From positions 51,080-115,079 of the forward strand of contig NZ_NTGZ01000002.1 in NCBI RefSeq assembly GCF_002551245.1: a DNA stretch of 64,000 bases, read 5' to 3'. Position numbers and translations under genes: made by a program. The stretch is from Streptomyces sp. rh34 (GTDB lineage: Bacteria; Actinomycetota; Actinomycetes; Streptomycetales; Streptomycetaceae). This document shows, piece after piece, positions 17,052-64,000 of this stretch (its first letter is position 1; every line of letters begins with the position of its first letter). The notes under the pieces are model-generated. The model saw only the letters and a program-made list of their open reading frames with translations, was not told the DNA's origin and ran no database searches.

Positions 17052-17083
17052 ATGTTAGTTTGCAACATGTTGGTCACTAACAT
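17052..17083. promoter_or_regulatory. Nested palindromic operator before the MFS pump
   Basis: ATGTTAGT (17052-17059) and ACTAACAT (17076-17083) are perfect inverted repeats around a central 8-bp palindrome, AACATGTT (17064-17071), all with the same centre. The site ends 10 bases before the pump start and the pump is co-encoded with a TetR regulator, so it is probably the TetR operator. Confidence 0.75.
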
Positions 17084-17093
17084 GAGGAGCGCG

Positions 17094-18644: not shown

Positions 18645-19255
18645 TCCGGGCCATGACGGGTTCAGAGGGCAAGTCCGACTGGCGTGAGCGCAAGAAGGCC
18701 GCCACACGTCGCACTCTGCAGAGCCACGCGATGCGCCTCTTCCTCGAGAAGGGGTACGAGGCGACGAAGGTGGAGGAGATCGCGGCTGCGGCAGGAGTGT
18801 CGACGATGACCTTCTTCCGCTACTTCCCCACGAAGGAGCACGCGGCCGCCGAGGACGACTACGACTTCCTGATCACGCAGCTGGTCGAGGACTGTTCTGC
18901 GGGTGAGCCGCTCGTACGGCGGATCCACACCGCGCTCCGGGGCGGGCTGGCGCAGGTCTACGCGGCTGACCGGCAGGCGCTGCTCGACCGCACTCGGCTG
19001 GTCCTGATGACGCCGGCGCTCCAGGGGAGAATGTGGCAGAACCAGGCGATCACTCAGCAGCACATCGTCCAGGCGCTTTCCCGGGAGGACGAGACCGAGA
19101 AAGATCCTCTCCGGATCAAAGTGCTGGTCGCAGCGAGCCTTGCCGTCGCCACGACCGCGATTCTGGAATGGGCCGCGGCGCCGGCTGAGGCGGAGTTGCC
19201 CGATCTCATCGACGCTGCGTTCGCGACGCTGGAGGCAGCGCAGCACCAGCCGTGA
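18641..19255 (+). CDS. TetR-family transcriptional repressor
   Basis: The N-terminal helix-turn-helix is clear: KAATRRTLQSHAMRLFLEKG, then YEATKVEEIAAAAGVSTMTF and FRYFPTKEHAAAED, within residues 15-70. The variable C-terminal ligand domain runs to residue 204. The ATG at 18641 overlaps the pump stop codon; ATG 18653 is the alternative start. It likely binds the palindrome at 17052-17083 and is released when a pump substrate binds, so it would also regulate itself. Whether it senses the polyketide is unknown. Confidence 0.9.
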   Translation: MIRAMTGSEGKSDWRERKKAATRRTLQSHAMRLFLEKGYEATKVEEIAAAAGVSTMTFFRYFPTKEHAAAEDDYDFLITQLVEDCSAGEPLVRRIHTALRGGLAQVYAADRQALLDRTRLVLMTPALQGRMWQNQAITQQHIVQALSREDETEKDPLRIKVLVAASLAVATTAILEWAAAPAEAELPDLIDAAFATLEAAQHQP

Positions 19256-19749: not shown

Positions 19750-22700
19750 GTGTCCGAATCCTTAGTTTTTATGTTCTCCGGCCAGGGGTCTCAATATTAC
19801 GGGATGGGCCGGGAGTTGTGGCGCTCAAATCCAGCCTTTGCGCGTTCGATGCGGTCTTTGGACGCGGTGTTCGCGGACGCTGGACTGCCAGGCGTTCTGC
19901 GAGAGATCTACCGGGAGGACCGGGGGGCTGCGCACCCGTTCGATCAACTCAGGTACACGCATCCGGCGATCCTGATGGTGGAGCTCTCCCTGGTGGAGAT
20001 GGTCCGGGCTGAGGGGATCCAGCCCGACCGCGTGCTGGGGGCGAGTCTGGGCGAGTTCGCGGCTGCGGCGGCGGCCGACGTACTGGACGTCGAGGACCTG
20101 GCCCGCTCGATCGCGGCGCAAGTGCGGCTGGTGGACCGGCACTGCCCGCCCGGCAGCATGATCGCTGTCCTGGATGACATCCGTAAATACCGGAAAGGCG
20201 GCCACGAAGGGCCCCTTGACGAGAGCCTCTGTGGAGGGCTCGAACTGGCTGCGGTCAATTTCGGCCATCACTTCGTGCTCACCGGAGAACCGGGGCAAGT
20301 AGCGCGGGAGGAAGCCCGGCTCAAGGCGAGCGGAGTGCTCTGCCAAGTGCTGCCGGTGACCTTTGCCTTTCACTCGCGGCTCATGGACGTGGCGGCAGAG
20401 CCCTACCGGCAAGCACTGTCCGGTCTCACCGTGCGCCGGCCAGGCGTGCCCTTCGTCTCCTGCGCCACCGGGGCGGCCATGGATGATCTCGGAGTCGACC
20501 ATTTCTGGCGCATGGTCAGGGAACCGATCAACTTCCAGAAAGCGATCCGCTCGCTGGAAGACCAAGGCGATCCATGTCTCTACGTCGACCTCGGGCCCTC
20601 TGCGACCATGTCCAATTTCGCTGCACGGAATCTGTCCGAGAATTCCCGTTCCAGGTCTGTCGCGCTGATCGACCCGTTCGCTCGAGAAGGGCATGGGCTG
20701 GAGCGCCTGCGGAAGCTGTCCAGGCGTTCCCGACGTGCCCTGTCAGGAAAAACCACAAACCGTGGAGAGCGCATGAAGGCAATCATCTTTCCCGGCCAGG
20801 GTTCGCAGTCCCGCGGAATGGGAGGTGATCTCTTCGCCCGCTTTCCGGAGCTGGTTTCCGGCGCCGATGATGTTCTCGGATACTCGATAGCGGACCTCTG
20901 CAAGGAGGACGCGGACCGCCGACTGGATCTGACTGAATTCACTCAGCCTGCTCTCTATGCCGTTTCGGCACTGGCCCATCTGGACAGGACGGGCGGGGGA
21001 TGGCATGGGGCCGGCTTCTTCGCAGGTCATAGCCTCGGCGAGTACACAGCGCTCTTCGCCGCAGGCGCGTTCGACTTCCTGACGGGCCTGCGTCTGGTCA
21101 AGGAGCGGGGTCGCCTGATGGGCACGGTCAGGAACGGTGGTATGGCGGCGGTCGTCGGAATGGGTGAGGAGCGGATCGCATCGGTCCTGGCGGACGCCGG
21201 CCTCACCGAAATCGACATCGCCAACTACAACTCAGCCGACCAGGTGATCATCTCCGGGCCCAAAAACATCGTTCACGGTGCACGCGACGTGTTCACCGCA
21301 GCCGGAGCCAGCGGCTTTGTCCCCCTCCGGGTGAGTGGCGCCTTTCACTCACGCCACATGGCCTCCGTCCAGAGGGAGTTCGAAAGGTTCCTTGAGGGGG
21401 TCACCTTCGGGAGGCTTTCCGTGCCCGTCATCGCGAATGTCACGGGGCGGGAGTACGAACAGGACAGTGTGCGTCGCCTGCTGTCCGAGCAACTGGTCCG
21501 TCCGGTCCGATGGGAACAGAGCGTCAGACACCTCTTGGCGCAAGGCGTCACCGAGTTCGAAGAGGTCGGTCCGGGCACGGTTCTGACCCGACTGGTCGGC
21601 AAGATCCGGGAAACGACCGCACCAGTGCCGACGCTCCCGTCGCCCAGGCCCGCACCGGCTCCGGCGCCCGCCCCGCAGGCGGTTCGGGAAGCGGTGGAGG
21701 TCGGCCGAGACACAGCCGACGAGACGTCAGGCCCGCAGTCGCTCGGAAGTGCCGCGTTCCGGCGTGCCTACGGCGCCAGGTACGCCTACGTCTGCGGTTC
21801 GATGTACCGCGGTATCGCCTCCGAGGAGCTGGTCATACGCGCGGCCCGCGCTGGGCTGCTCGCCTTCTTCGGCAGTGGTGGTCTGGAGCAGGACCGTATC
21901 GCTTCGGCCATCACGCGCATCGTGGCCGGAGTCGGTACCGACGCCCCGTTCGGGGTGAACCTGGTCCACAATCCGACCTTCCCCGCGACGGAGGACGACA
22001 CGGTCCGGCTGCTGCTCTCACGCGGGATCCGGGCCGTGGAGGCCTCTGCCTTCATGAGGGTCACCCGGGCGCTCGTGCACTACCGGCTCAGCGGGCTCAC
22101 CAAGGGCCCGGACGGCGAGGTGAGAATCGCCAACCGGATCCTCGCCAAGGTCTCCCGGCCGGAAGTGGCCGAGAGCTTCCTGAGCCCTCCACCGGAGCGG
22201 CTGGTCGGGCTCCTTGAACAGGAAGGGCTGATCACCGCCGAACAGGCGGCACTGGCGGCGGGGGTGCCCATGGCGGACGACCTGTGTGTCGAGGCGGACT
22301 CCGGAGGGCACACGGACCGCGGGAATCTCATGGTGCTGCTCCCGACCATGTTGCGCCTCCGTGACCGCATGGCGGAGGAGCTCGGCTACCCGGCACGGGT
22401 GCGGGTGGGAGCCGCGGGCGGGATCGGGACGCCGGAGGCAGCCGCGGCGGCGTTCCTGCTGGGCGCCGACTTCGTACTCACCGGCTCGATCAACCAGTGC
22501 ACGGTCGAAGCCGACATGAGCGACCTCGCCAAGGACATGCTGCAGCAGATCAACGTGCAGGACACCGATTACGCCCCGGCCGGGGACATGTTCGAGATCG
22601 GCGCGCAGGTGCAGGTCCTCAAGCGCGGTGTGTTCTTCCCCGCCCGCGCGAGGAAGCTCCACGAGTTGTACCGGCGTCACGAATCGCTGGAAGAGATCGA

Positions 22701-23079
22701 TCCGGAGACGCGCGCGTTGATCGAGCAGCGCTACTTCCGCAGGTCACTGGATGACGTCTGGCAGGAGACGAGGGACTACTTCGCCCGGCGGGAGCCCAAG
22801 GAGCTGGAGAAGGCCGAGCAGAACCCCAAGCACCGGATGGCCCTGGTGTTCCGGTGGTACTTCGGTCACAGCCAGCGGGCCGCCATGGCCGGATCGGCCG
22901 ACAACCGCGTGGACTTCCAAGTGCACTGCGGTCCCGCCCTGGGCGCCTTCAACCAATGGGTCAAGGGCACGCGGATGGAGAGCTGGCGCGAGCGCCACGT
23001 CGACGAGATCGGAACCCGGTTGATGGAGGCGGCCGCCCGGCAACTGAACGCCACGCCCGTGCGGGAGGCCGGCCGATGA
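19750..23079 (+). CDS. Stand-alone tandem acyltransferase-enoyl reductase (AT-AT-ER) for trans-AT PKS
   Basis: The 1109-residue protein supplies functions missing from the PKS modules. AT1 (about residues 5-300) has GQGSQ and an active-site GASLG (Ser99) with His208. AT2 (about 342-630) has GQGSQSRGMGG, the malonyl-type GHSLGEYTALFAAGAF (Ser428) and GAFHS (His533), and is the likely malonyl-CoA:ACP transacylase loading every module. The C-terminal part (about 665-1100) is a PfaD-like FMN-dependent trans-enoyl reductase (FRRAYGARYAYVCGSMYRGI, RVRVGAAGGIGTPEAAAAAF). AT1 with Ala instead of His in GHSxG resembles the proofreading acyl hydrolases of such clusters. The GTG start has GGGGGG in front. 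The stop overlaps the start of the next PKS gene (ATGA). Confidence 0.93.
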   Translation: MSESLVFMFSGQGSQYYGMGRELWRSNPAFARSMRSLDAVFADAGLPGVLREIYREDRGAAHPFDQLRYTHPAILMVELSLVEMVRAEGIQPDRVLGASLGEFAAAAAADVLDVEDLARSIAAQVRLVDRHCPPGSMIAVLDDIRKYRKGGHEGPLDESLCGGLELAAVNFGHHFVLTGEPGQVAREEARLKASGVLCQVLPVTFAFHSRLMDVAAEPYRQALSGLTVRRPGVPFVSCATGAAMDDLGVDHFWRMVREPINFQKAIRSLEDQGDPCLYVDLGPSATMSNFAARNLSENSRSRSVALIDPFAREGHGLERLRKLSRRSRRALSGKTTNRGERMKAIIFPGQGSQSRGMGGDLFARFPELVSGADDVLGYSIADLCKEDADRRLDLTEFTQPALYAVSALAHLDRTGGGWHGAGFFAGHSLGEYTALFAAGAFDFLTGLRLVKERGRLMGTVRNGGMAAVVGMGEERIASVLADAGLTEIDIANYNSADQVIISGPKNIVHGARDVFTAAGASGFVPLRVSGAFHSRHMASVQREFERFLEGVTFGRLSVPVIANVTGREYEQDSVRRLLSEQLVRPVRWEQSVRHLLAQGVTEFEEVGPGTVLTRLVGKIRETTAPVPTLPSPRPAPAPAPAPQAVREAVEVGRDTADETSGPQSLGSAAFRRAYGARYAYVCGSMYRGIASEELVIRAARAGLLAFFGSGGLEQDRIASAITRIVAGVGTDAPFGVNLVHNPTFPATEDDTVRLLLSRGIRAVEASAFMRVTRALVHYRLSGLTKGPDGEVRIANRILAKVSRPEVAESFLSPPPERLVGLLEQEGLITAEQAALAAGVPMADDLCVEADSGGHTDRGNLMVLLPTMLRLRDRMAEELGYPARVRVGAAGGIGTPEAAAAAFLLGADFVLTGSINQCTVEADMSDLAKDMLQQINVQDTDYAPAGDMFEIGAQVQVLKRGVFFPARARKLHELYRRHESLEEIDPETRALIEQRYFRRSLDDVWQETRDYFARREPKELEKAEQNPKHRMALVFRWYFGHSQRAAMAGSADNRVDFQVHCGPALGAFNQWVKGTRMESWRERHVDEIGTRLMEAAARQLNATPVREAGR

Positions 23080-26000
23080 CCGGTTCGGACGGATCTCGCG
23101 ACAAGGCCACGGACAGCATGACGGGTCGCATAGCAGTCGTCGGCATCGGCTGCCGGCTCCCCGGCGCGGAGGACCAGAACGCCTACTGGTCCAATCTCCA
23201 CGCGGGAGTCTGCTCAGTCGGCGAGGTGCCCCCCGACCGCTGGGACATCGGACGCCACTACTCACCCGACATCTCCGTCCCCCACACCTCCGTCAGCAAG
23301 TGGTGCGGCCTCATCGACCGCCCCTACGCCTTCGACCATGCCTTCTTCCGAGTTCCGCCGAAGGACGCGGCGCTCATGGACCCCCAGCAGCGTCTGCTGC
23401 TGGAGGAGACCTGGCACTGTGTCGAGGACGCCGGCATCCCCATGGCCGACCTGAGTCACGCCCGTACCTCCGTGTACGTCGGAGTGATGGCGCGGGACCA
23501 CCTCCAGGAGGCCGCCAAGGACGGCGCACCGGTGGAGAGCCACTCGGGACTGGGAGGCTACGACTGCCTGCTGGCGAACCGTGTCTCCCACTTCTTCGGC
23601 CTGCGGGGTGCCAGCATCTCCATCGATGCCGCCTGCGCCTCATCGCTCGTGGCCGTACACGCCGGTTCACAGGCACTGCGCACCGGAGAGGCCGATTACG
23701 TTCTGGCCGGCGGCGTCAGCCTGAACCTCCACCCCTGGAAGTACATCTCGTTCTCCAAGGCACGGATGCTCAGCCCCGAGGGCCGGTGCAAGACCTTCTC
23801 CCAGGACGCGGACGGATACGTGCCGGGAGACGGCGTCGCGATGGTGCTCCTGCGCCGCCTGGAAGACGCCGTGCGCGAGGGCAACCACATCTACGGGGTC
23901 CTGGCCGGAAGCGCCGTCAACCACGTCGGCCGTCGCGACACCATCACCGCTCCCAGCCTCGCATCCCAGCGCGACGTCGTCTCGACCGCGCTCACCCGTG
24001 CCGGCTGGGACCCGCGGACCGTCACGTACGTGGAGGCGCACGGAACCGGCACCTCGCTGGGCGACCCGATCGAGGTGGAGGCGCTGCGGGGCGTGTACGC
24101 GGCGGCGTCGGAGAACACCGGCTGGTGCCGCATCGGGTCGGTGAAGCCCAACATCGGGCACCTGGAGGCCGCGGCGGGGATCGCCGGGCTGATCAAGGTC
24201 CTGATGATGATGCGCGCGCGGACGATCCCTCCGAGCATCGGCATCCGCGAACTCAACCCGCTGATCCGATTCGACAAAAGCCCCTTCCAGGTGGCACGGG
24301 AAAGCTCCGCCTGGTCACCGCACGAGGAGGACGAACTCCTTCGCGCCGGTGTCAGCTCCTTCGGCATGGGCGGCGTGAACGCACACGTCCTCGTGGAGGA
24401 GTTCGCCGGCGCCCGGGCCGGCGCCAAGGAGCCCGCACGGGCCGGTGGCAGTCGCCGCGCGGGCACCGGACGCCACCCGTTCATGCTGTCGGCCCGCAGT
24501 CCCGAGGCCCTGGAACGGCTTCTCGACCGCTGGCGCGAGGAGCCCGGGCAGCACGGATGGACGTCAGAACCGGCCGCCGATGTCTGCCGGACGCTTTCCG
24601 TGGGGCGTGAGCACTTTCCGTACCGCGTCGGAGGCCTCGTCTCCGACGCCGGGGACATCACCGCCCTGGTCGATGCGGCCGCACCACCCCAAGAAGCCGT
24701 GACGGACCGTTCCTGGCTGCTGCGTGTGGGCCTGCTCGCCGTCCCCTCCCGTCGACAACTGCGGGAGCTTCTGGCCTCCCCGCTCTACACGGAAGCCGTC
24801 ACCGGCCTGCGCAAGCAGTCGCCCGAGGGTGCGAAGGCCTTGCGGGACCTGCGCCAGGGCAGCGGCGGGCCGGGCGACGAGGTCGTTTTCACCTACCTGA
24901 CCGTCCGCGCTCTGCTGCACGCGGGGTTCGCCCCGGAGTCGGTCACCGCGTACGGCCCCGGTGTCTGGGCCGCGCTCGCGGCCGTCGACGCCCTGGACGT
25001 TCCGGTCGCCGCCGCGCTCGCCCAGGGTGCCGGGCCCAGCACCGCCGTTCCGCTCCGTGCCCCGCGCATTCCCTTCACCGAACCGGTGAACGGCCAGGTC
25101 CTGCACCCCTACCGGCTCGACACGGACTATCTGACGGGCCTCCGGGCCGACCTGCGCGTGAGCGACGAGGAGTCCGCGCGCGTGCACGACCGCGCCCGTC
25201 GCCTCGCTGACGACCAGCACACCTTCCGCGGCCACATCAAGGAATGGGACCACCTCCTGGCAGAGCGGCAGGGGACAGGCCCCGGGTTGCCCACGGGCGG
25301 TGACGCCTGGCACACCGCGGCCGCCGACCCTTCCGACCCGGGCCGCACGCTGCGCGTGCTGGCCGCCGAGAACGCCCTCGACCTCCTGCACAAGAAGTGG
25401 GACATGGTCCACGAACGCGAGGTCGACAGCGCCCCGGTACGGGATCTTCTGGATCTGCTGTCCCATGGCGTCCTGACCCGGCAGGACGCCATCGCCCTCG
25501 TCCTGGGGGACGACTCGGAGCTTGCCGAGACAGCAGAGCGGGCCCGGCAGCGTACGAAGCTGCTGCCGGACGACGAAGGCGTTCCCCTGCTGCGGTCCCG
25601 CACCGGGACGAGCGTCGACTCCGACGACGTGTGCGCATGGGCCTCCGCCACCGCGACCGCCTCCGGGACGCACCGCCCGCAGGAGGCCGTTCTCTCCGTC
25701 GGAGCCGGTCTGCCCCTCTCGGCGGACGTCGTCGTCGACGGGGACGATGACCTCGCCGACGTGCTCGCCGGACCGCTGCTGAACCTCTGGCTGCGTGGCG
25801 TTCCCCTCGACTGGCGCCGCACGGCAACAGGGGCCCGGGGCAGGCTGCTGCCTCTGCCCACGACGGAGTTCGTCCGGAGCGAGCACCGGCTGGAGCGGCA
25901 CCCCGCCCCTCGGCCCGCCCTCGCCGCCTCGGGCACTCCCACAGCGGCCGGCCCGGATCGAGCCGTGACGCTCCGGGAACTGTCCCGGCAGATCGAGGCC

Positions 26001-29000
26001 GTTTCCCTGCCGGACGGGGGGCGCACCGTGAGCGGGCCGCTCACGGTGGCCCTCCCCGCGAGGCTCCACGACGAACTGCGCGACCTCGTACAGAGCGCCC
26101 TGCCGGCCGATGAGCTCTGCTGGATCCGTCTGGGAGAGCGGTACGAGGACGACGGCACCGGCACCTGGACAGTGCGTGCCACGGAAGAGGGCGATTGGCG
26201 CAGGCTGTTCTCCACGCTCCGAGCCGACGGCCGCCTGCCCCGCCGCATCATCCATCTCTTGGCGCCGCGGGCGGACGCGCCGCTCGACGAACGGCTCACC
26301 GAGACGGTGTACAGCGCGTTCCTCCTGTCGAAGACCATCGCGTCCCTCCAGGAAAGCGGTCACACGGAAATCGTCTGCCTGCGGCCGGGCGTCGCCGCGG
26401 GTGAACCACTCCGGACCGGATACGCGGCGACCGCGGAGTCCGAGACCGCGGCCATCGCCGGCCTGGCCCGGAGCCTTCGCAGGGAGACGGCCAGGGTGCT
26501 GCTCCGCGCCGTCACCGTGGACACCCGGCCGACCGACCCGTCCGCCTGGCGGCGTGCAACGGAGGAGTTCGGGGCGACGGACGCAGCAGAATCCGTCCTC
26601 TACTTCGACGGCACCCGCCATGCGGAGCGGTACACCGAGAAGGAGTGGGACGCGCGCCGCGGCACAGGCGCGGACCCGTACACCGGCATCCGGCCCGGCG
26701 GCGTGTACGTCATCAGCGGCGGAGCCGGTGGACTCGGCCGGCTGATCACCGAGCACCTGCTGCGTACCCCGCGGGTCCGGGTGGTCCTGGTCGGCCGGTC
26801 CGAGCTCCCGTCGGCGCGCACCGACGCCATGACCGCGCTGCCCGGCGGGGACGACCCCCGGGCCGAGTACCTCACCGCGGACCTGCGCGATCCCGAGCAG
26901 GCCGAGGCCGTCACAGCCGTCGTCCGGGAAAGGCACGGGCGGATCGACGGGGTCATCCACGCCGCGGGCGTGCTCCGTGACGGACTGCTCGTCAACAAGA
27001 CCCTCGACGACGTCCGGGCGGTGCTGACTCCGAAGATCCTCGGCGCCGTCAACCTCGACCGGGCCACCCGGGACGATCCGCTGGACTTCTTCGTCCTGTT
27101 CTCCTCCGTGGTCGCGGTGTCGGGCAACGCCGGGCAGACCGACTACGCCGCGGCCAACGCCTACCTCGACGCCTACACGGCCGAGCGGGAGCGCCTCCGC
27201 GGGGACGGGCAGAGGTCCGGCCGCACCCTGGCCATCGGCTGGCCCTTGTGGGAATCCGGTGGCATGACGGTGGCCGACTCCGGGAGCAGCGTCTTCCGGC
27301 AGGACCGCGGCGTGTTCCCGCTGCCGAGCCGCGAGGGCCTCGAAGCGCTCGACACGCTCCTCGCCGGCCCGCCCGGACACCGAGTCTTCGTCCACGGGAC
27401 GCAGCAGGGCAGTACCTGGCTCCTGGCGGAGCAGCAGCGGGCTCCGGAGCCGACGCCCGCCCCAGCGACGGACAGGAGGCGCGGCGCGACCGCTGCTGCC
27501 GTGAACGATCCTGTCCAGCAGGCCGTCCACTACCTCGCGGGGGTCTTCGCCGAACTGCTCGGGGTCGAACCGGACCAGGTGGACCCGCGTACGGGGTTCG
27601 ACGAGTACGGCATCGACTCGATCCGCATCAGCCAGTTCAACGCCCGCATCGAACAGGATCTGGGCGCTGTCCCACAGACGCTGCTGTTCGAATGCCGCAC
27701 CCTGAGGCAGGCCGCGGAGCGGGTGGCCGCGCACCGGCCGGACGAACTGGCCGCCTGGTTCGCCGAAGGCGCGCAGCCGCGGGATGAGGCGGATGAGGTC
27801 CATCCCGCACCCGGCGGGCCTGCGCCCTCCGCGCGGGTTTCCGCGTCCGACCGCAGCGCCCTCCCCGCCCCGGAGCGCGACCCGATCGCCGTCATCGGCA
27901 TGTCCGGCCGGTATCCGATGGCTCCGGACGTCGACACGTTCTGGGAGAACCTGGCCGCCGGCCGGGACTGCGTCACGGAACTTCCGCCGTCACGTCGCGC
28001 GTTGTGGCGTCTTGCTGCCGACGCGGCCGGCGACAGCGACATCTCCCACACCTCAGGTGGCTTCCTCGACGACGTCACACGGTTCGACCCGCTGTTCTTC
28101 AACATCTCGCCGCGCGAGGCAGAACTGATGGACCCCCAGGAGAGGATCTTCCTGGAGGTCGCCTGGGAGGCGTTCGAGGACGCCGGGTATCCCCCGTACC
28201 GGCTCGGTGACCCGGACGACCCCGCGCAACGCCGGGTCGGGGTGTTCGCGGGCGTCACCACGCAGACCTATCTGCTGTGGGGCCCCGACGAGTGGCGCGA
28301 GGGAAGCACTGACATCCCCACCTCCACCCAGTGGTCGGTCGCCAACAGGATCTCCTACTGGCTCGACCTGCACGGTCCCAGCATGCCCGTCGACACGGCC
28401 TGCGCGTCCTCGCTGCACGCGGTCCATCTGGCCTGCGAGAGCCTCTCCCGAGGCGAGTCCGACCTCGCCCTCGTCGGTGGTGTCAACCTCTACCTGCACC
28501 CCAGCAAGTACCGCTGGCTCTCCCAGATGCAGATGCTGTCGCAGACCGGGCGGTGCCACACCTTCGGAGAGGGAGCCGACGGGTTCGTACCCGGAGAAGG
28601 CGCGGGCGCGCTCGTCCTGAAGCCACTCCGGCGGGCGGTGGCGGACGGGGACCGTGTCCTCGGTCTGATCAGGGGGACCTCGGTCAACCACGGTGGCCGC
28701 ACCAACGGATTCACGGTGCCGAACCCGCGCGCCCAGGCGGAACTCGTCCGCCGCGCACTCGACGACGCGGGCGTCGGCCCCGGGACGATCGGCTACATCG
28801 AGGCACACGGCACCGGAACGGCACTCGGTGACCCCATCGAGATCGCTGGGCTGACCGAGGCCTTCGAGGGCGTGCCGAGGAGTGCCCTGTCAGAGGACGA
28901 CGGATGTTCCGTCGGATCGGTCAAGACCAACATCGGCCATCTGGAGGCCGCCGCCGGCATCGCCGGTCTGACCAAGGTTCTCCTGCAACTGCGACACGGG

Positions 29001-32000
29001 ACTCTCGTTCCCTCGCTCCACGCGGAACGGGAGAACCCTCGATTCGACCTGGGCACCACACCCTTCCGGGTCCAGCGAGCGGCCGCCCGCTGGACCCGGA
29101 AGAGCGGTCCGGACGGTCAGGAGCTGCCCCGCCGTGCCGGGATCAGCTCCTTCGGAGCGGGAGGATCGAACGCACACGTGATCGTCGAGGAGTACGACGG
29201 ACCCCGGGCGGCGCGCGGCGCCCCGGACGGAGAGCACCTGATCGTCGTGTCCGCCAAGGACCACGAACGGCTCCGCGAGCACTGCGCCAACCTGGCGCAG
29301 GCCGTCGCCGCCGGGAAGAGTGACCTGCTGCTGTCCGAGGTCGCCCACCAGTTGCAGGTCCGGCGGCAGCCGCTGCCCGAACGCGTGGCGCTGCTCGCAT
29401 CGGATCTGGGGGAACTCGTGCAGCGCCTGGAGGCGGTGGCCGCGGGCCGCCCGCCGGCCGCCGGATGCTGGACGACCGACCGCACACCCGGAGCCCGGCA
29501 GGCGGCACACGAGGCGGTGCCGGGCGCTCTGCGCACCCGTGACCTCGGCCGGCTGGCCGCGAGCTGGGTGGCCGGCGCCGACGTCCCCTGGGCACAGCTG
29601 TACCCCACGCCCCTGGCCCATGTGGAGCTGCCCGCATATCCGTTCGCCCCTGAGCGCTACTGGCTGGAGCAGAAGCAGGGAGAAGAGGAAGAGCAGGCGA
29701 TCGAACGCCGATCGGGCCAGGCGGACTCCCACCCGCTCATCAGCGGAGTCACGGAGGATGCCCAGGGCACGTTCGTCGACTTCACCGGGCACGAGTTCTT
29801 CCTGAAGGACCACCAGGTCGACGGCGTACCGATCTTCCCCGCCGTGGGCTACCTCGAGATGGTCAGAGCGGCCGCCCACCTTGCGGGCAGTCCCGCCGTA
29901 CGGCTTCGGAACAACGTCTGGTCCGAGGCCATGACGGTGCCGGCGCCCCAGCGCTTCCACCTCGGTCTGGAACCGGCGTCCGGAGGCTGGGCCTACGAGG
30001 TGTACAGCGTCGACGGCGATGGCGCACGCCTCGTGCACGGGCGAGGCCGGGCGGACACGGGTACGGCCGATCCGGGCACAGCCGACCAGACCGTCGACAT
30101 CGACGGTATTCGTGCCCGCTGTGGCGACCGGGCGGGGGCGGAGGAGTTCTACGCGCTCGTCCACCGGCTCGGCCTGCAACTGGGGGACGCCTATCAGGGC
30201 GTACGACGGCTGTGGTGGAACCAGGACGAGGCGCTCTCGGAGATCCGGCTTCCCGAAGCCGCGCAGGACGGATCCGACGGGTTCGTGCTGCATCCCTCGA
30301 TGCTCGACTCCGCGCTTCAGGCGTCGTTGTGGCTGATCGAACGGCGCGAGGGGCGCGGCAGGCTCCACCTCCCCTTCACGATAGGAAGCGTCGACGCCAC
30401 CCGAGCCACCCCGCGCCGCGGATTCGCCCACGTCGTCGTCCGCTCCTGGACCGAGGCCGGCAAGAAGATCGAGGTGCGGCTCTGTGACGAACAGGGGCGC
30501 GTTCTCCTGACCGTTCGCGACTTCTGGCTGCGGCCCTGGCGGACGGCGCCGGACGAGCAGCCCGCCCCGGTGCCGACAGGAGCCTTCTTCCGCCCGGCCT
30601 GGACGCCGCGGCCGGTCCTGACCGCTGGTCCGGCGGACGGCCGGCAACCCGCCACGGCCACCCTGGTGCTCGCCCCGACCACCGAGGCGGGACACGCGCT
30701 CGCCGCGGCCGTGTCCGCGTTCCCCGACGGTGCGGGTACACCCGTCGTGGTCACCCCGGGAACCGGTTTCCACGCCCCGGCCCAGGAAGGCCGGGGCCAC
30801 GAGATCACCCTGCGCACCTCGGAGGCCGGGGACTTCCGGGACCTGGTGCGCGTACTGATCGACCGGGGAATGCTGGGCCGGGGAAGCGAGACACGCCTCG
30901 ACATCCTCTCCACCTGGCCGGCGTCGGACTTCCAGGGCGGACCCGACGATGTCGAGGCACAACTCGACGACGGTCTGCGGCCGCTGTTCCACCTGGTCCA
31001 CGCGCTTCTCACATCCGGTGACCACAGCCGGATCCATGTGGTGTGCGCGTTCCCCGGGAACGGGACGGGACAGCCCGGGTACGCCGCCCTGGGCGGATTC
31101 CTGCGCACCCTCTCCCGGGAGAGCACCCGCTTTTCCACCTCGCTGGTCGAACTGCCGGCCCATGACCTGACCGCCCTCGCGGAGGGCGGCGGTGCCGCCC
31201 GGACGCTGGCGGCCGAACTGTACGACCGGTCTTCGGCGAACGCGGAGGTGCGCCACCGGGACGGCCTGCGAGCCGTCAGGACCTGGGCCACGCACAACGT
31301 GCCGGCACCGGACAGGAGCACCCGCCTTCGCCGACGAGGCGTCTATGTGATCAGCGGCGGTGCGGGCGGTATCGGTGCGCACGTGGCGTGCGGACTCGCC
31401 GCCCGCCACGGCGCTCGTCTGGTGCTGGCCGGACGCTCTCCCCGCGACGAGCGGATCGACGCGCTCCTGGCACGGGTCGCCGCCGAGGGCGGCGAGGCCC
31501 GATACGTGCAGGCGGACCTCTCACGCGCCGAGGAAGCCGCCGCCGTGGTCCACGCGGCGGAATCGGCCTTCGGCGAGCTGCACGGAGTCTTCCACTGCGC
31601 CGGGGTGCTGCGGGACGCCTTCCTGGTCAGCCAGGATCTGGACCGCATCCAGGAGGTGCTGTCCCCGAAACTCCTGGGCGCCGTCCATCTGGATGCCGCG
31701 ACCCGCGATCGGCCGCTGGACGTCTTCTGTCTGTTCTCGTCCGTCGCGGCGCCGCTCGGCAGCTCGGGCCAGGCCGGATACGCCTACGCCAACAGCTTCC
31801 TGGACGCCTTCGCCCACTGGCGGGAGGAGCAGTGCCGACGAGGCGCCCGCAGCGGGCACACCACCTCGTTGAACTGGCCGCTGTGGCAGGACGGAGGGAT
31901 GGGCGTCGACGCGGAGGTGCAGACGTGGCTGAGGGTGAACCTCGGGCTGCTCCCGCTCCGGACAAAGACGGCGCTTTCCGCCCTGGACGCCGTCCTGGAA

Positions 32001-55566: not shown

Positions 55567-58500
55567 GAAGCGCCATGAAGAAACTGCTGGAACTCGTCGA
55601 GACGAAGCAGATCACGCCGGAGGAGGGGCAGCGGCGCCTCGCCGAGCTGCGCGCCGCCGGGCGGCAGGCGGACCGGCCGCGAGCCGCACACACCGCCGGA
55701 TCACCTGCGGAGCAGCGGATCGCGGTCATCGGCCTCTCCACCCGCTACGCCGGAGCCGGGTCGCCGGACGCCCTGTGGCGTCTGCTGGCCGAGGGCACGT
55801 GCGCGGTCACCGAGGTGCCGCCGGACCGTTGGCGCCCCGAGGACTACTACGACCCCGATCCCCGGACCCCCGGCAGGACCAACTCGCGGTGGGGCGCCTT
55901 CGTGGAGGATGTCGCCGCCTTCGACCCCTTGTTCTTCCACCTCTCCGGCCGCGAGGCGGAGCGGATGGACCCGCAGCAGCGGCTCTTCCTCGAGGGCTGC
56001 TGGAACGCACTCGAGGACTCCGGTCACGCGGGCGACTCGCTCGCGGGCTCCAGCTGCGGAGTGTTCGTCGGCACTCCGGCCAGCGACTACCCGCTGGAAT
56101 CACAGCGCTCCGGCCCGGACGCGGACGCTCAGGTCCTGCTCGGCAACGACACCTCCATCCTGGCCTCACGCATCTCCTACCTGCTCGACCTGCGGGGCCC
56201 CAGCGTGGCCCTCAACACCGCCTGTTCCTCCTCGCTGGTCGCCCTCGACCTGGCCTGCCAGGCCATCCGCAGCGGACAGTGCGAGATGGCGCTCGCCGGC
56301 GGTGTGTGCCTGTTCGTCGGCCCCGGGTTCTACGTGTCGGCCAGCAAGGCGGGCATGCTCTCGCCGCGAGGCCGGTGCAGCGCCTTCGACCAGGACGCCG
56401 ACGGCTTCGTTCCCGGTGAAGGGTGCGGGGTGGTCGTCCTCAAGAGCCTGGACGCGGCCCTGCGCGACGGTGATGACATCCGCGGTGTCATCCTCGGCTC
56501 GGCGGTCAACCAGGACGGCAAGTCCAACGGCATCACCGCCCCCAGCTCCCGCGCACAGACGGAGGTGCAGCTCCAGGCGTACGAGCAGGCCGGGATCGAC
56601 CCCCGGACGATCTCGCTGATCGAAGCGCACGGCACCGGCACCGCCCTGGGCGACCCGATCGAGATCGAGGCCCTCACACGGTCGTTCGCCCGCTTCACCG
56701 ACGACCGGGAGTTCTGCGCCATCGGGTCGGTCAAGTCCAATCTGGGACACACCGGCCAAGCGGCGGGAGTGGCCGGGCTCATCAAGTGTCTGCTGGCCTT
56801 CGAGCACGAGCAGATCCCGCCCACGCTCCACTACTCGGCGTCGAACGAACGCATCACCTTCTCCGAGACGCCGTTCCGCCCCGTTACCTCCCTCCAGCCA
56901 TGGCCTCGACGCGAGGACGCGCCGCGCCGCGCCGCGATCAGCTCCTTCGGCTACAGCGGCACCAACGCCCATGTGGTCGTGGAGGAACCGCCCGCCCCGC
57001 GCCCCGTGGCTTCCGCCCCGGCCGACAGCGGCCGGCCCCACCTCATTCTCGTTTCCGCCAAGACCGGGGAGGCCCTGCGCCGCCGCCTGAAGGACCTGGA
57101 CGCCTGGCTCGACGAGCGGGGCGAGGCCCACCGGCTCGAGGACATCGCCCACACCCTGCACGACGGCCGCAAGCACTTCGAGATACGTCTCGCGTTGGTC
57201 GCCGACACGACGCACGGTCTGCGCCGCTCGATCCAGGAGGCCCTCGACGGCCGAGCCGCGGACCGCACGCCCGCCGCGCGGCTGAGCGGTGCCGAGAAGA
57301 CGCGGCTCCTGGACATGCTGGGAGAGCGCCTCGCCGACGTCCTCCCGGGCAGCACCGATCACGCTCGCGCCCTGAGGTTCGCGGCCGACCTGTACGAACG
57401 CGGGATCACGCTGCCCGTGCGCCAGGTCCTTCCCGAGGGCGGACAGCGGCGGGTGCCCCTCCCTACCTATCCCTTCGAGCGGGACCACTACTGGCACTCC
57501 GACGCCGCCGTGCACGGTCCGGACACCGGCCCGGACCTGGAAGAGCTCCCCTCGGCACACGGGGCGTCCTTCCGCTTCCGCGCGCGGCCCGGTGATCCGC
57601 TGGTGGCCGACCACGTCATCGGCGGCCGGCGCGTGCTGGCCGGCATGGTCTCCCTGGAACTCGCCCGCGCCGCGGCCGCCCGGGCCGGCTTCGGCGCTCA
57701 GCCGGTCGTCGAACAGATCACCTGGAACCGGCCCGTCGTCCCGACGGACGACGGAGGGATCGAGATCACGGTCTCCCCGAGCGAGGACGGAACCCTGCGC
57801 TTCACGGTGGACGCGCCCGACGGGTCCACGGGCGTCGCGGGCGCGACCGGCGTACTGAGCCCCCGGAGCCGGGAGCCCGAAGACCTCACCGTCGACATCG
57901 AGGCAGTACGCGCCCGCTGCACCTCGGTCATCGACCGGGAGGACTGCTACCGACGATTCACCGCGCTGGGGTTCGCCTACGGGCCGGGCTTCCGGGTGGT
58001 GAGCGAACTGCGGTTCTCCGGCAACGAAGTCCTGGCCCGCCTGGAACTGCCCGCGGAACAGGCCGTCCGCCAGGCCCCGAACTCCCTGAGGCCGACGCTG
58101 CTGGACGGCGCGCTGCAGGCCCTCGTCGCCCTCGCCGGTGACGACGACCGCGTCCGTCGCGTCCCCTACGCACTGCGCCGGCTGACCGTGCACACACCGC
58201 TCGGCGACTCCTGCTACGCCCGTCTGAAACGCCGTGACGACGGCGTGCTGGATGTCGAGGTCATGGACGACACGGGAACGGTGCTCGTGACCATGGAGGG
58301 TCTTGAGGTTCTCGAAAGCCGGGAACCGGACCCGGCGACACCGCCGGACCTCACCCTGTTCGCCCCGGAGTGGCAGGAGACGGAGCGCCTCACAGATACG
58401 GCGCGGTCCTCCGTGGAGCCGGTCCTGGTGCTGGACACGGAGGGCTCGTCGGCCGATCGTCTGCGTGCGGAGAACCCCGGGCGGCCCGTCGTCCTCGTCA

Positions 58501-61500
58501 CCCCCGGCGAAGCATTCCGGTCCCTCGCGCCCGGTCACTACGAAGTGCGGCCCGAATCCACCGAGGACTACGCCCGGTTGCTGGCCGCCCTGCCGGAGGC
58601 ACAGCGGCCCACCCGGATCCTGCTCCTGTCGACCGCCCGGACAGCGGCGACCGGAACCCTCTCCGCCAGCCTGGAGGCCCCGCTCGGCCGGACGCATGGG
58701 CTCCGCACGCTGTTCGCGCTGACCCAGGCCCTCTGCGCCGCACCGCTGCCGGGTCCGGTGGCGGTCAGGACCGCCTACCCGGCCGCCGCGGGGACGGCCC
58801 CCGAACTCGCCGCACTGGGGGCCTTCGCCCGAACGGTACGGAGGGAGAACCCCGACCTGTGCCTGGGGACCATCGGACTGCCCACCGGAATCGACGACCG
58901 CGCTCTCCCCGCCACCGCCTGGGACCTCCTGCTCGCCGACGTGTCCCCCGACGAACCGGTGGAGCTCCGCCTGGAGCCGACCGGCTCCATCGGACAGCGG
59001 ACCTTGAGGGAGCTGCCCGCACAGACGGAAACCCCCGCGAGCGTCGTCCGGCCCGGACACACCTACGTGATCACGGGAGGTACGGGTCACCTGGGCCTCG
59101 CACTCGCGGGGCGCCTGGCGGCCGACGGCGCCCGTCCGGTCCTCGTCAGTCGCTCCGCCCCCGGGCCCGAGGCACGGGAGACGCTGCGCTCCCTCCGGGC
59201 GGAGGGAGCCGATGTGGTCCACATGAGGGCGGACGTGTCCGACCGGACCGCCCTGGGTGAAGCACTGCGTGAGGTCAGGAGCCGTTTCGGTCCGCTGCAC
59301 GGCGTCATCCACGCGGCCGGCGTCATCCGTGACGCGTTCCTCCTGCACAAGACGGCGGACGACCTCCAGGACGTGCTCGGCGCGAAGTGCGACGGCGCGG
59401 TGTGGCTGGACGACCTGACCCGCGAGGACCCGCTCGAGTTCATGGTCTTCTTCTCCTCCGTGGTGGCCACCGTGGGCAACCCCGGCCAGAGCGACTACGC
59501 CTACGCCAACGGATTCCTCGACGAGTTCGCCGAGACGCGGGAGACGTGGCGCGGCGAGGGGCGCCGCAACGGCCGGACCCTGTCGATCGGCTGGCCCGCC
59601 TGGTCCGGCGGAGGCATGGCTCACGTGCTCCCGGGCCCGGACACACTCGGCGTCGACGAGGGATGGAGCGCGTTCAAGAAGGCGCTCAGCAGCCCCGGGC
59701 CCCGGCTCGTCGTCGTCAAGGGCCGGGCGGCTGCCGCCGCCGTCCAGGCATCCGCCGGGCAGACGGAGAGCTCGGCCGTCGGGCGTCGCCCGGACGACAC
59801 GGCGGACCAGGCGGCCGGCACGGAGGACCTGCGGCGGTTCGCCACCACCCTGCTGGGCGAGGTCCTGGCCGAGGAGTTGCGCGTACCGGCGCGACGCATC
59901 GACCCCGAGGCCTCGTTCGACACGTATGGCATCGACTCCGTCATGGTGATGCGGCTCTCCGAACGCCTGGAGCGTGAGTTCGGTCCGCTGCCCAAGACCT
60001 TGTTCTTCCAGTACGCCAACCTCTCCGAGATCGCGGGACACCTGGCCCGGAGGTACGGGCCACTGCTGAAGAGCAAGATGTCTCCCGATGGGAGCACCGC
60101 CACGGACCAGGCACCGGAGGAACCGGCGGCCGGCCCGGGCCCGTCGAGCGTCACCGCCTCAGCCACCGGGCGCACGCAGGTCCTCCGGGCGGGGGCCGAG
60201 GAATCGACACATGCGAACGGGGAGATCGCCGTCATCGGTGTGGCCGGGCGATACCCCATGGCCGGGGACATCGAGGAGTTCTGGCACAACCTCGTCGAGG
60301 GCCGGGACTGCGTCACCACCGTCCCGGCGGATCGATGGCCGATGGAGGGCTTCTACGACCCCGAGGGCGGGCCCGGCAGGAGCTACGCCAAGTGGGGTGG
60401 ATTCCTCGATGACATCGACAGGTTCGACCCCCTGTTCTTCGGCATCGCTCCGCGCGACGCCGACATGATGGACCCCCAGGAACGCGTCTTCCTGGAGACG
60501 GTCTGGCACGCACTGGAGGACGCGGGCCGAACCCGTGCCGACCTGCGGGATGGCACCACCGGCGTCTTCGTGGGGGTGATGTACGGCGACTACCAGCGCT
60601 ACGGTGCCGCGCCGGACGGCCGCATGGGCGTGTCGTCCTACGCCTCCATCGCCAACCGGGTGTCGTACTTCTTCGACTTCCGCGGGCCCAGCATGGCGCT
60701 GGACACCATGTGTTCGTCGTCCCTCACCGCCATTCACCTGGCGTGCGAGAGCCTGCGCAGGGGGGAATGCGACACAGCTGTCGCCGGCGGCGTCAATCTC
60801 AGCACCCACCCGGACAAGTACCGGCAGCTCAGCCTGGCGCGCTTCCTCTCCACCGACGGGCGTTGCCGCAGCTTCGGCGCCGACGGGGACGGCTATGTTC
60901 CGGGCGAGGGCGCGGGAGCGCTGCTGCTCAAGCCGCTGGACGCGGCGCTGCGCGACGGCGACACCGTTCACGCGATCATCCGCGGCAGCGCCGTGAACCA
61001 CGGCGGACGCACGAACGGCTACACGGTGCCCAGTACCCGCTCGCAGAGCGCGGCGATCACCGCGGCCATGCACCGGGCCGGGGTGAGGGCCGAGGACATC
61101 GGGTACGTCGAGGCGCACGGGACCGGAACCGCGCTCGGGGACCCCATCGAAGTGGCCGCGCTCACCGAGGCGTTCCACGACCAGGATCACGCCGGCCCGG
61201 ACCCCCGTGCGGCAGTCGTGCCCGACGGCTCGCACAGGATCCCGATCGGCTCGGTCAAGTCGGGTATCGGGCACCTGGAGTCGGCGGCGGGCATCGCCGC
61301 GGTGACCAAGGTCATCCTGCAGATGAGGCACCGGACCCTGGTGCCGTCGCTCCACGCGGAGCGGCTCAACCCCGACGTGGATCTGGAGGCCTCACCCTTC
61401 CGTCTGCAGCGCGAGCTGTCCGAGTGGACGCCACGCGGTGACGCGCGGCCTCGCTGGATCGCGGGTGTGAGTTCCTTCGGGGCAGGAGGCTCGAACGCCC

Positions 61501-64000
61501 ACCTCATCCTCGAAGCACCCCGGTTGCCGGAGCCGCTGCCGGACGACGCGGACGGCCGACACGTACTCGTGCTCTCCGCGAAGAGCCCCGACCGTCTCAC
61601 GGACCTGGCCTCGCGACTCGCCGACCGGCTGGACCACTCGGCCGACTCCGGCCCCGGGGCTCCGGAGCACACGCTGGCGAGCAGGGTGAAGGACTACCTG
61701 ACCGATCGGCTGAGCGAGTTGCTCGGCCTGCGGCCCGGGGACCTCGGGCAGGCCGACGATCTCGCCGAGTGCGGATTCGACGAGGTGACCAGGGTGCGGC
61801 TGGGCACTGCCGTGGCCGAGGAATGCGGGGTGCCGTCCGATGAACTGCCCCTCGCCGCACACACGGTGGAGAAGTTGTCCGACCACCTGATCGGACAGCA
61901 CGAAAGTGTTCTGCGCGGCCACTTCGAGGTTCCGGCCGACCGCCCGCGGCGGTCGATTCCCACACGGCCGCACCGTCTCGGAGACGTTGCCTACACCCTG
62001 CAGGTCGGCAGGGAAGCCATGGACGAACGCCTCGCGGTCGTCACCGCCGACCTCGCGGGCGCGGTCGCCGGGCTTCGTGCCTTCGCCGAGGGACGTGTTC
62101 CCGCGGCCGGTGTCTTCGCCGGCAGCCTGGCGGTCGACCCGGACGAAGCCGCCGACCGGGTCGGCGTCCCCACGGACACCGACAGCCCCGAGGCCCTCGC
62201 CCAGCGGTGGGTGCGCGGTGCCCAGGTCGACTGGCGTTCCCAGCACGCCGGGCGCGGACGCGGAGCCGTCCCTCTGGTCGGCTACCCCTTCGCCCGCGAA
62301 CGCCACTGGCTCGACACGGCCGCACGGACGGCCGCGGTATCCGCTCCCGAACCATCCCCGCAGGACGATCCGGAGGTCATGATGGACAGCAAGACGGACA
62401 CGGGGCGTTCACCGCAGGAGAGCGACGGCAACCTCAGGTCGTGGCTCGAACGGACACTGACGACGTTCGCCGGCGAGTCGATCGGACTGGCGCCCGAGCG
62501 CATCAACCGTCGTACCGCGCTGGGGGAGTACGGATTCGAGTCGGTCTCCCTGAAGGCGCTGGCGGACCGCGTCTCCAGCCATCTGGGAGTGACCATGTCC
62601 CCCACGCTCTTCTTCGAGCGGCGTGGAGTCGCCGGAGCCGTCGACTGGCTCATCGAGGAGTACGAAGACCGGCTCGCCTCCCGCGTACCGCGGTCCGCGG
62701 AAGCCGACGCCCCGACCGCGGAGGCCGACGCCAGTGGGCAGACGGCCGTCGCCTCCCGTGTGCTGACGGCTGGGGAGGTTCCGGAGTACAGGGACGGCGC
62801 CGAACCCATCGCGGTCATCGGCATGAGCGGCAGGTTCCCCGGTTCGCGGGATCTCGACGACTACTGGGAGAACCTCTACCACTGCCGGGACATGGTCACC
62901 GAAGTGCCGGCCGACCGCTGGGACTGGAAGGCCCTCGACAGCGAAGACCTGCCGCCCGAGCAGCGCACGCCCTACCGATGGGGCGGATTCATCGAGGGAG
63001 CGGACACCTTCGACCCGCTGTTCTTCGGGATCTCCCCGGCCGAGGCCGAGATGATGGACCCGCAACAGCGGATGCTCCTCCAGACGGTGTGGACCGCGAT
63101 CGAGGACGCCGGATACCGTCCGTCCGCGCTCGCGGGCCGCCGGGTGGGCCTCTTCTCGGGCATCCAGTTCAGCGACTACCAGCACCTCATGCACGAGGCC
63201 GGCGTCATGAGCGCCCAGTCCGGCCTGGGCAACGAACACTCCATCTCGGTGAACCGGATCTCCTACCTCCTCGATCTCCGCGGCCCGAGCGAACCGGTCA
63301 ACACCGCCTGCTCCAGCTCACTGGTATCGGTGCATCGTGCCGTGCGGTCGCTGCGCCAGGGGGAGAGTGAACTCGCCATCGCCGGCGGCATATCCCTCAA
63401 TCTCTCGCCCCACTCGACCGTGGCCGCGGGCATGATGGGACTGCTCTCGCCGGACGGCCGCTGCAAGACGCTCGACGCCAGGGCGAACGGCTACGTGAAG
63501 GGCGAGGGCGTCGGGATGCTGGTGCTCAAGCCGCTCGCCCGCGCACTGGCCGACGGAGACCAGATCCATGCCGTCATCCGCGGAACGGCCGTCAACCACG
63601 GAGGACGTGCGGCGTCCCTCACGGCGCCCAACGCCGAAGCACAGGCGGACCTGCTGTGCACGGCGCTGGACGAAGCCGGCGTAGGACCCGACAGCATCGG
63701 ATACGTGGAGCTGCACGGCACCGGCACCGAACTCGGAGACCCCGTCGAGATCAACGGCATCAAGCTCGCGTTCCGCCGCCTGGCCCGGAAGCGCGGTGTC
63801 GAGCTGTCCGGCGAGCCGTACTGCGGCATCGGTTCGGTGAAGACGAACATCGGGCATCTCGAACCCGCATCCGGGATCGCCGGCCTGCTGAAGATCATCC
63901 TGTCCATGCGTCACCGGGCGTTGCCCGGCATGGTGCACCTGGACCAGGTCAATCCGTACGTCGATCTGGACGGGAGCCCGTTCCGCATCGTCGACAGGAC
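55563..64000 (+). CDS. Trans-AT type I polyketide synthase 3, modules 8-10 (partial, runs off the window)
   Basis: The frame opens at ATG 55563 (ATGA overlap with PKS 2) and stays open for 2812 codons to the window edge. Residues 5-26 (MKKLLELVETKQITPEEGQR) are an N-terminal docking helix pair. The order is KS8-DH-KR-ACP, KS9-(ACP-like)-ACP, KS10 (cut). The KSs have intact catalytic residues where visible. No AT domain is seen. Frame continuity was checked at the KS8, KS9 and KS10 starts and at the active-site Cys and ACP Ser codons. The rest of the gene, and any thioesterase, lie beyond the window. Confidence 0.93.
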   Translation, partial: MRSAMKKLLELVETKQITPEEGQRRLAELRAAGRQADRPRAAHTAGSPAEQRIAVIGLSTRYAGAGSPDALWRLLAEGTCAVTEVPPDRWRPEDYYDPDPRTPGRTNSRWGAFVEDVAAFDPLFFHLSGREAERMDPQQRLFLEGCWNALEDSGHAGDSLAGSSCGVFVGTPASDYPLESQRSGPDADAQVLLGNDTSILASRISYLLDLRGPSVALNTACSSSLVALDLACQAIRSGQCEMALAGGVCLFVGPGFYVSASKAGMLSPRGRCSAFDQDADGFVPGEGCGVVVLKSLDAALRDGDDIRGVILGSAVNQDGKSNGITAPSSRAQTEVQLQAYEQAGIDPRTISLIEAHGTGTALGDPIEIEALTRSFARFTDDREFCAIGSVKSNLGHTGQAAGVAGLIKCLLAFEHEQIPPTLHYSASNERITFSETPFRPVTSLQPWPRREDAPRRAAISSFGYSGTNAHVVVEEPPAPRPVASAPADSGRPHLILVSAKTGEALRRRLKDLDAWLDERGEAHRLEDIAHTLHDGRKHFEIRLALVADTTHGLRRSIQEALDGRAADRTPAARLSGAEKTRLLDMLGERLADVLPGSTDHARALRFAADLYERGITLPVRQVLPEGGQRRVPLPTYPFERDHYWHSDAAVHGPDTGPDLEELPSAHGASFRFRARPGDPLVADHVIGGRRVLAGMVSLELARAAAARAGFGAQPVVEQITWNRPVVPTDDGGIEITVSPSEDGTLRFTVDAPDGSTGVAGATGVLSPRSREPEDLTVDIEAVRARCTSVIDREDCYRRFTALGFAYGPGFRVVSELRFSGNEVLARLELPAEQAVRQAPNSLRPTLLDGALQALVALAGDDDRVRRVPYALRRLTVHTPLGDSCYARLKRRDDGVLDVEVMDDTGTVLVTMEGLEVLESREPDPATPPDLTLFAPEWQETERLTDTARSSVEPVLVLDTEGSSADRLRAENPGRPVVLVTPGEAFRSLAPGHYEVRPESTEDYARLLAALPEAQRPTRILLLSTARTAATGTLSASLEAPLGRTHGLRTLFALTQALCAAPLPGPVAVRTAYPAAAGTAPELAALGAFARTVRRENPDLCLGTIGLPTGIDDRALPATAWDLLLADVSPDEPVELRLEPTGSIGQRTLRELPAQTETPASVVRPGHTYVITGGTGHLGLALAGRLAADGARPVLVSRSAPGPEARETLRSLRAEGADVVHMRADVSDRTALGEALREVRSRFGPLHGVIHAAGVIRDAFLLHKTADDLQDVLGAKCDGAVWLDDLTREDPLEFMVFFSSVVATVGNPGQSDYAYANGFLDEFAETRETWRGEGRRNGRTLSIGWPAWSGGGMAHVLPGPDTLGVDEGWSAFKKALSSPGPRLVVVKGRAAAAAVQASAGQTESSAVGRRPDDTADQAAGTEDLRRFATTLLGEVLAEELRVPARRIDPEASFDTYGIDSVMVMRLSERLEREFGPLPKTLFFQYANLSEIAGHLARRYGPLLKSKMSPDGSTATDQAPEEPAAGPGPSSVTASATGRTQVLRAGAEESTHANGEIAVIGVAGRYPMAGDIEEFWHNLVEGRDCVTTVPADRWPMEGFYDPEGGPGRSYAKWGGFLDDIDRFDPLFFGIAPRDADMMDPQERVFLETVWHALEDAGRTRADLRDGTTGVFVGVMYGDYQRYGAAPDGRMGVSSYASIANRVSYFFDFRGPSMALDTMCSSSLTAIHLACESLRRGECDTAVAGGVNLSTHPDKYRQLSLARFLSTDGRCRSFGADGDGYVPGEGAGALLLKPLDAALRDGDTVHAIIRGSAVNHGGRTNGYTVPSTRSQSAAITAAMHRAGVRAEDIGYVEAHGTGTALGDPIEVAALTEAFHDQDHAGPDPRAAVVPDGSHRIPIGSVKSGIGHLESAAGIAAVTKVILQMRHRTLVPSLHAERLNPDVDLEASPFRLQRELSEWTPRGDARPRWIAGVSSFGAGGSNAHLILEAPRLPEPLPDDADGRHVLVLSAKSPDRLTDLASRLADRLDHSADSGPGAPEHTLASRVKDYLTDRLSELLGLRPGDLGQADDLAECGFDEVTRVRLGTAVAEECGVPSDELPLAAHTVEKLSDHLIGQHESVLRGHFEVPADRPRRSIPTRPHRLGDVAYTLQVGREAMDERLAVVTADLAGAVAGLRAFAEGRVPAAGVFAGSLAVDPDEAADRVGVPTDTDSPEALAQRWVRGAQVDWRSQHAGRGRGAVPLVGYPFARERHWLDTAARTAAVSAPEPSPQDDPEVMMDSKTDTGRSPQESDGNLRSWLERTLTTFAGESIGLAPERINRRTALGEYGFESVSLKALADRVSSHLGVTMSPTLFFERRGVAGAVDWLIEEYEDRLASRVPRSAEADAPTAEADASGQTAVASRVLTAGEVPEYRDGAEPIAVIGMSGRFPGSRDLDDYWENLYHCRDMVTEVPADRWDWKALDSEDLPPEQRTPYRWGGFIEGADTFDPLFFGISPAEAEMMDPQQRMLLQTVWTAIEDAGYRPSALAGRRVGLFSGIQFSDYQHLMHEAGVMSAQSGLGNEHSISVNRISYLLDLRGPSEPVNTACSSSLVSVHRAVRSLRQGESELAIAGGISLNLSPHSTVAAGMMGLLSPDGRCKTLDARANGYVKGEGVGMLVLKPLARALADGDQIHAVIRGTAVNHGGRAASLTAPNAEAQADLLCTALDEAGVGPDSIGYVELHGTGTELGDPVEINGIKLAFRRLARKRGVELSGEPYCGIGSVKTNIGHLEPASGIAGLLKIILSMRHRALPGMVHLDQVNPYVDLDGSPFRIVDR
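55716..60060 (+). other. PKS module 8: KS-DH(altered)-KR-ACP
   Basis: KS8 is at 55716-57000 (Cys221 in NTACSSS, NLGHT). DH8 is at about 57560-58320: His684 and Asp848 (LLDGALQ) are kept, but the Pro of HxxxGxxxxP is Ala693 (HVIGGRRVLA). KR8 runs to about 59740 (Tyr1312 in DYAYAN, IRD motif) and ACP8 is at 59823-60060 (Ser1459 in GIDSV). Output is a double bond or, if the DH is weak, a hydroxyl. Confidence 0.85.
60222..62670 (+). other. PKS module 9: KS-(ACP-like)-ACP
   Basis: KS9 is at 60222-61515 (Cys1717 in DTMCSSS, HGTGT, GIGH). A degenerate ACP-like insert is at 61680-61920, then linker residues ending in VGYPFARERHW. The real ACP9 is at 62430-62670 (Ser2327 in GFESV). With no reductive domains the expected output is a beta-ketone, as in module 6. 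Confidence 0.85.
61680..61920 (+). other. Degenerate ACP-like insert in the KS9 linker
   Basis: VKDYLTDRLSELLGLRPGDL and LAECGFDEVTRVRLGTAV keep ACP spacing, but the carrier Ser is Glu2074 (GFDEV). It is the third such insert in the line, again between the VLVLSAKS and LGDVAYTLQVGR linker elements. Confidence 0.65.
62802..64000 (+). other. PKS module 10: KS10 (partial)
   Basis: KS10 starts with EPIAVIGMSGRFPGSRDLDD and carries Cys2583 in NTACSSS, ELHGTGT and NIGHLEPASG. The window ends shortly before the C-terminus of the KS, so the downstream domains are unknown. Its NHGGRAASLTAPNAEAQ segment resembles that of KS3, suggesting related substrate clades. Confidence 0.9.

Follow-up and report, generated by a model that had tools for sequence, protein, structure and literature searches.

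Known anthracimycin-type systems

The anthracimycin producer Streptomyces sp. TP-A0875 possesses one acyltransferase (AT) gene and three AT-less polyketide synthase (PKS) genes, and anthracimycin and chlorotonil A have a common carbon skeleton (PMC4599085). The C2 and C16 methyl groups of anthracimycin are documented (PMC6267485). The current proposal, as cited in that article, is that a methyltransferase (MT) is incorporated in module 10 of atcF (PMC6267485). The t1pks-2 cluster of Phytohabitans flavus was compared by its authors with the anthracimycin PKS (PMC7692728, Table 3). Its first half is listed as KS/KR/ACP-KS/DH/KR/ACP-KS, DH/KR/MT/ACP, ER-KS/DH, ACP-KS/DH, KR/ACP-KS/ACP and its second half as KS/DH, KR/MT, KS, DH/KR/ACP, KS/ACP, KS, ACP/TE-MT (PMC7692728). 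For S. tagetis RG38, one transAT-PKS is listed, at positions 318,727-407,049, with anthracimycin as the best antiSMASH match (100%) (PMC10940327).

Organization of the locus

The window, i.e. the whole 64,000-nucleotide stretch analysed, corresponds to positions 51080-115079 of a 124,239-base contig in a genome of 8.2 Mb and 629 contigs. The contig runs on 9 kb beyond the window. Contig positions 111000-124239 were joined to the window in order to read past its edge (70.6% GC for the joined sequence), and positions beyond the edge are given as window equivalents. This extension had been suggested in the original prediction and revealed ACP10, a thioesterase (TE), an MT and ABC transporter genes.

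Ten KS domains, at 23127, 27879, 32598, 39663, 42799, 47443, 50071, 55713, 60222 and 62802, are distributed over three genes. All ten retain the active-site Cys and the HGTGT motif. Domains were assigned by searching Pfam with slices of the proteins, and no AT domain was detected in the three PKSs, just remnants in the KS linkers. The description of the locus as a trans-AT PKS cluster was correct: several KSs without a cis AT are combined with a discrete AT, encoded by the adjoining gene.

PKS 1 (23076-42323, + strand) comprises KS1-KR-ACP, KS2-DH-KR-ACP, KS3-(ACP-like insert)-DH-KR-MT-ACP-ER and KS4-DH. Module 4 is split over two proteins, and its ACP opens PKS 2 (42232-55566, + strand), which continues with KS5-DH-KR-ACP, KS6-(ACP-like insert)-ACP and KS7-DH-KR-MT-ACP. 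The part of PKS 3 that lies in the window (55563-64000, + strand) consists of KS8-DH-KR-ACP, KS9-(ACP-like insert)-ACP and KS10. Beyond the edge, the same gene encodes ACP10, a TE (~65091-65891) and an MT (~66489-66797) identified with Pfam, and ends at 67043, so that module 10 reads KS-ACP-TE-MT. Ten true ACPs with the Ser residue were counted across the three proteins, and no loading module precedes KS1, as had been noted. The domain order first proposed held as far as it went, except that module 8 is now read as KS-DH-KR-ACP. The apparent lack of a TE applied to the window itself; the TE follows ACP10 just past the edge.

In the DH of module 8 (57558-58310), Ala replaces Pro in the HxxxGxxxxP motif and Arg replaces His in the second. 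Both substitutions are common to the Streptomyces orthologues described below, and the Actinophytocola copy has the second one.

The gene preceding PKS 1 (19750-23079, + strand) encodes a protein with two Acyl_transf_1 stretches, an NMO (ER-type) domain and a FabD_helical_ins match, and its stop codon overlaps the start of PKS 1 (ATGA). It had been described as an AT-AT-ER protein. The two stretches and the ER-type domain are present, but the first 'AT' (19750-20720) has the residues of an acyl hydrolase (AH): GASLG and, 25 residues on, Gln124. The second domain has GHSLG and Arg. This pair of signatures was found in five of five compared clusters. In acyl hydrolases, absence of the Arg is diagnostic and the motif is G(A/S/V)SL (PMC11775670). 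By these diagnostic residues the first domain is an acyl hydrolase, and the protein is therefore better named AH-AT-ER.

Upstream of this gene are an MFS transporter gene, likely for export (17052-18644, + strand; Pfam MFS_1, E = 8.6e-56), and a TetR-family regulator gene (18641-19255, + strand; Pfam TetR_N and TetR_C_14). The pair is preceded by housekeeping genes (5-FTHF cyclo-ligase, MoeA, molybdopterin-binding). Downstream of PKS 3, Pfam identified genes for an ABC ATPase and two ABC-2 permeases, reaching to about 69421, followed by a gene with an alpha-lytic protease prodomain. The cluster thus continues past the window, as anticipated. The PKS cluster, of the anthracimycin type by its domain content, is very probably complete on its contig, from about 17052 to 69421. 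Elsewhere in the genome, further large modular KS-bearing genes were seen on contigs C158, C187 and C235.

Among the genes scanned, which did not include every small frame, no cytochrome P450 or glycosyltransferase was found. The Pfam scan, which began ~10 kb before the PKSs and ran through the last of the ABC genes, again without every small frame, detected no halogenase. This bears on a chlorotonil-type cluster, in which the skeleton that chlorotonil A shares with anthracimycin (PMC4599085) would be gem-dichlorinated. In the chlorotonil cluster of Sorangium cellulosum (cto), the methyltransferase CtoF is free-standing, whereas here the C-methylating domain follows the TE within one protein. 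The cto cluster also contains a halogenase; neither a halogenase nor a separate C-methyltransferase was seen among the scanned genes here. A chlorotonil-type cluster is highly improbable, and chlorotonil was rejected as the identity of the product because the scanned genes included no halogenase.

Comparison with related clusters

The ACP-TE-MT region was used as the query for orthologous clusters in a genus sample (n = 393) and in named genomes. Besides the genome of origin, a single genome of the genus sample (G092) gave a full-length match (81%). Three named genomes matched: Streptomyces sp. JJ38, at 85% in its best segment, S. tagetis RG38, at 81%, and an Actinophytocola MAG, at 72%. Two of the three nearest named clusters are thus in Streptomyces. 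No additional full-length TE-MT match was found in a phylum-wide sample. Plasmid matches to the TE-MT region were all below 60% identity and, among those listed, covered at most 57% of the query.

KSs were counted by HMM. Each of the clusters of JJ38, S. tagetis, the Actinophytocola MAG and G092 has ten KSs with the same spacing. In every pair of clusters the same-numbered KS is the closest, at 70-92% identity vs 47-65% to any other KS (broken KS2 of the MAG aside), which indicates that no module has been swapped. In the MAG (G780:C98, ~22000-22900), KS2 is split between two frames, which reflects either a sequencing error or a genuine lesion.

Identities across the four orthologous clusters are 60-71% for PKS 1 (the MAG copy matching only from residue 1830 on), 60-72% for PKS 2, 62-75% for PKS 3 and 68-83% for the ABC ATPase. 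AH-AT-ER is 76-77% identical in the three Streptomyces-type clusters and 67% in the MAG. The MFS transporter is 81% identical in both the S. tagetis and G092 clusters, and the TetR-family regulator 77-78% in two orthologous clusters. TE and terminal MT motifs are present in five of five clusters, the SAM motif of the MT being intact. The same five have the KS4/KS5 protein split and an identical short KS6-KS7 spacing. As the P. flavus PKS also has modules 4 and 6 without KR, these are traits of the family and not of the strain.

The S. tagetis RG38 cluster (contig positions 335,965-389,457, within the span of the listed 318,727-407,049 region) shares collinear MFS, TetR, AH-AT-ER, three PKS and ABC genes and ten orthologous KSs, with 67-81% protein identity (PKSs 67-71%) and ~77% identity over aligned DNA. 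The published table gives no contig name, and the link to the listed anthracimycin cluster is made by the coordinates and by its being the single such cluster in that table (PMC10940327). The KSs of the present cluster are thus orthologous, position by position, to those of a cluster published as anthracimycin, and the former statement that the order did not match anthracimycin falls (PMC10940327).

The module order is also that of P. flavus t1pks-2, including KS-DH||ACP, KS-ACP, a cis ER after ACP3 and TE-MT (PMC7692728). The ten modules thus follow the anthracimycin order and end with TE then MT. Neither the module-7 ACP nor an ER for the AT protein appears in the P. flavus listing; the annotation there divides the genes into more pieces, and further PKS genes adjoin. 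Apart from that one unlisted ACP, the order first called unrecognised equals a published one (PMC7692728). The atc cluster, likened through published descriptions, shares with the present one a single AT gene, three AT-less modular PKS genes and a last-module methyltransferase. The position of the MT behind the TE agrees with the MT proposed for module 10 of atcF.

The original prediction, which found no matching order, took the cluster for a new assembly line with an unknown product. The domain order, the gene set, the orthology of all ten KSs and the assignment published for an orthologous cluster all speak against this reading, which is now hardly credible and, as regards module order, refuted. 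The comparisons point with high confidence to a further member of the known anthracimycin-type pathway, with a product predicted accordingly. A false lead is thereby eliminated, as there is no need to pursue the locus as an unknown pathway.

Predicted product

For the anthracimycin-type pathway, we infer the following route, including its starter, the reductions at modules 4 and 6, the timing of C2 methylation, the cyclisation and the product. Numbering is from the lactone carbonyl. Anthracimycin also has a methyl group at C8, and its formation involves a Diels-Alder step. The malonyl AT of AH-AT-ER would load all ten modules, and the acyl hydrolase domain would presumably clear carriers loaded wrongly. 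An acetate starter, taken here, would begin the chain, and module 1 would leave the C21 hydroxyl for the lactone. Module 2 would give C18=C19 and module 3 a saturated unit bearing the C16 methyl. Modules 4 and 5 would form a diene by means of the one KR they have, that of module 5. Having neither KR nor DH, module 6 would likewise have to be processed from outside. Module 7 would provide the C8-methyl alkene and module 8 C6=C7, and modules 9 and 10 would leave a 1,3-diketone (C5 and C3 oxygens). The TE would close the 14-membered lactone, and the MT behind it would add the C2 methyl. The decalin would arise by an intramolecular Diels-Alder reaction. The MTs are located where the known C2 and C16 methyls require them.

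If modules 4 and 6 are both reduced and dehydrated from outside, the computed formula is C25H32O4, that of anthracimycin. Under the same assumption, omission of the last methyl gives C24H30O4, that of anthracimycin B. A strictly collinear reading of the modules gives C25H32O6. Because outside processing of these two modules is presupposed, the formula match is to some extent built in and serves as a consistency check, not a proof. In dehydrating bimodules, one KR or DH is shared between neighbouring modules (PMC8456789); the domain layout found here fits neither of the two types described there.

A congener with the same backbone, which would lack the C2 methyl, have another stereochemistry or retain the C11 oxygen, is a variant within the anthracimycin-type reading. 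The PKSs are 67-71% identical to those of S. tagetis, which leaves room for another stereochemistry, anthracimycin B lacks the C2 methyl, an anthracimycin isomer is known from a Nocardiopsis, and module 6 has neither KR nor DH. However, the terminal MT is intact, as is its SAM motif, and both are conserved. Module 6 also lacks KR and DH in P. flavus, and the short KS6-KS7 spacing extends to S. tagetis. Such a congener is possible but rather unlikely. As a complete further cluster of the anthracimycin type, the locus is useful for comparing how the carbonyl oxygens are lost at modules 4 and 6 and how an MT behind a TE works.

ACP-like inserts in KS linkers

An ACP-like insert without the Ser residue interrupts the linker that follows the KS in three cases, KS3, KS6 and KS9 (all + strand). 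The KS3 linker spans 33978-34418 (core ~34092-34262) and its PP-binding match (E = 0.011) is below the cut-off. The KS6 linker spans 48799-49275 (core ~48916-49113; PP-binding, 1.1e-10) and that of KS9 61572-62087 (core ~61692-61889; PP-binding, 7e-6). The distance between flanking motifs, a motif-based measure with a few mis-hits, is ~90-140 residues in these three linkers vs ~33-46 in most other KSs. The phosphopantetheine Ser is missing in all 15 copies of the insert in the five clusters. Searched with a profile of the insert-containing linkers, the remaining genomes of the genus sample yielded about twenty full-length matches, in other Streptomyces PKSs, and the matches that were read out had no DS-type Ser at that position.

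A search of solved structures returned none containing the whole insert at that place. A literature search returned no paper describing such inserts, which does not prove that none exists. Tentatively, the inserts could represent a conserved, non-catalytic carrier-protein fold, previously undescribed, that actinobacterial trans-AT PKSs use for docking or as a spacer. These conserved dead ACP-like inserts pose a small question that is open to testing. In a structure model of KS6 with its insert (mean pLDDT 68, modest confidence), helices were predicted at the insert, at residues 486-499, 519-533 and 548-558.
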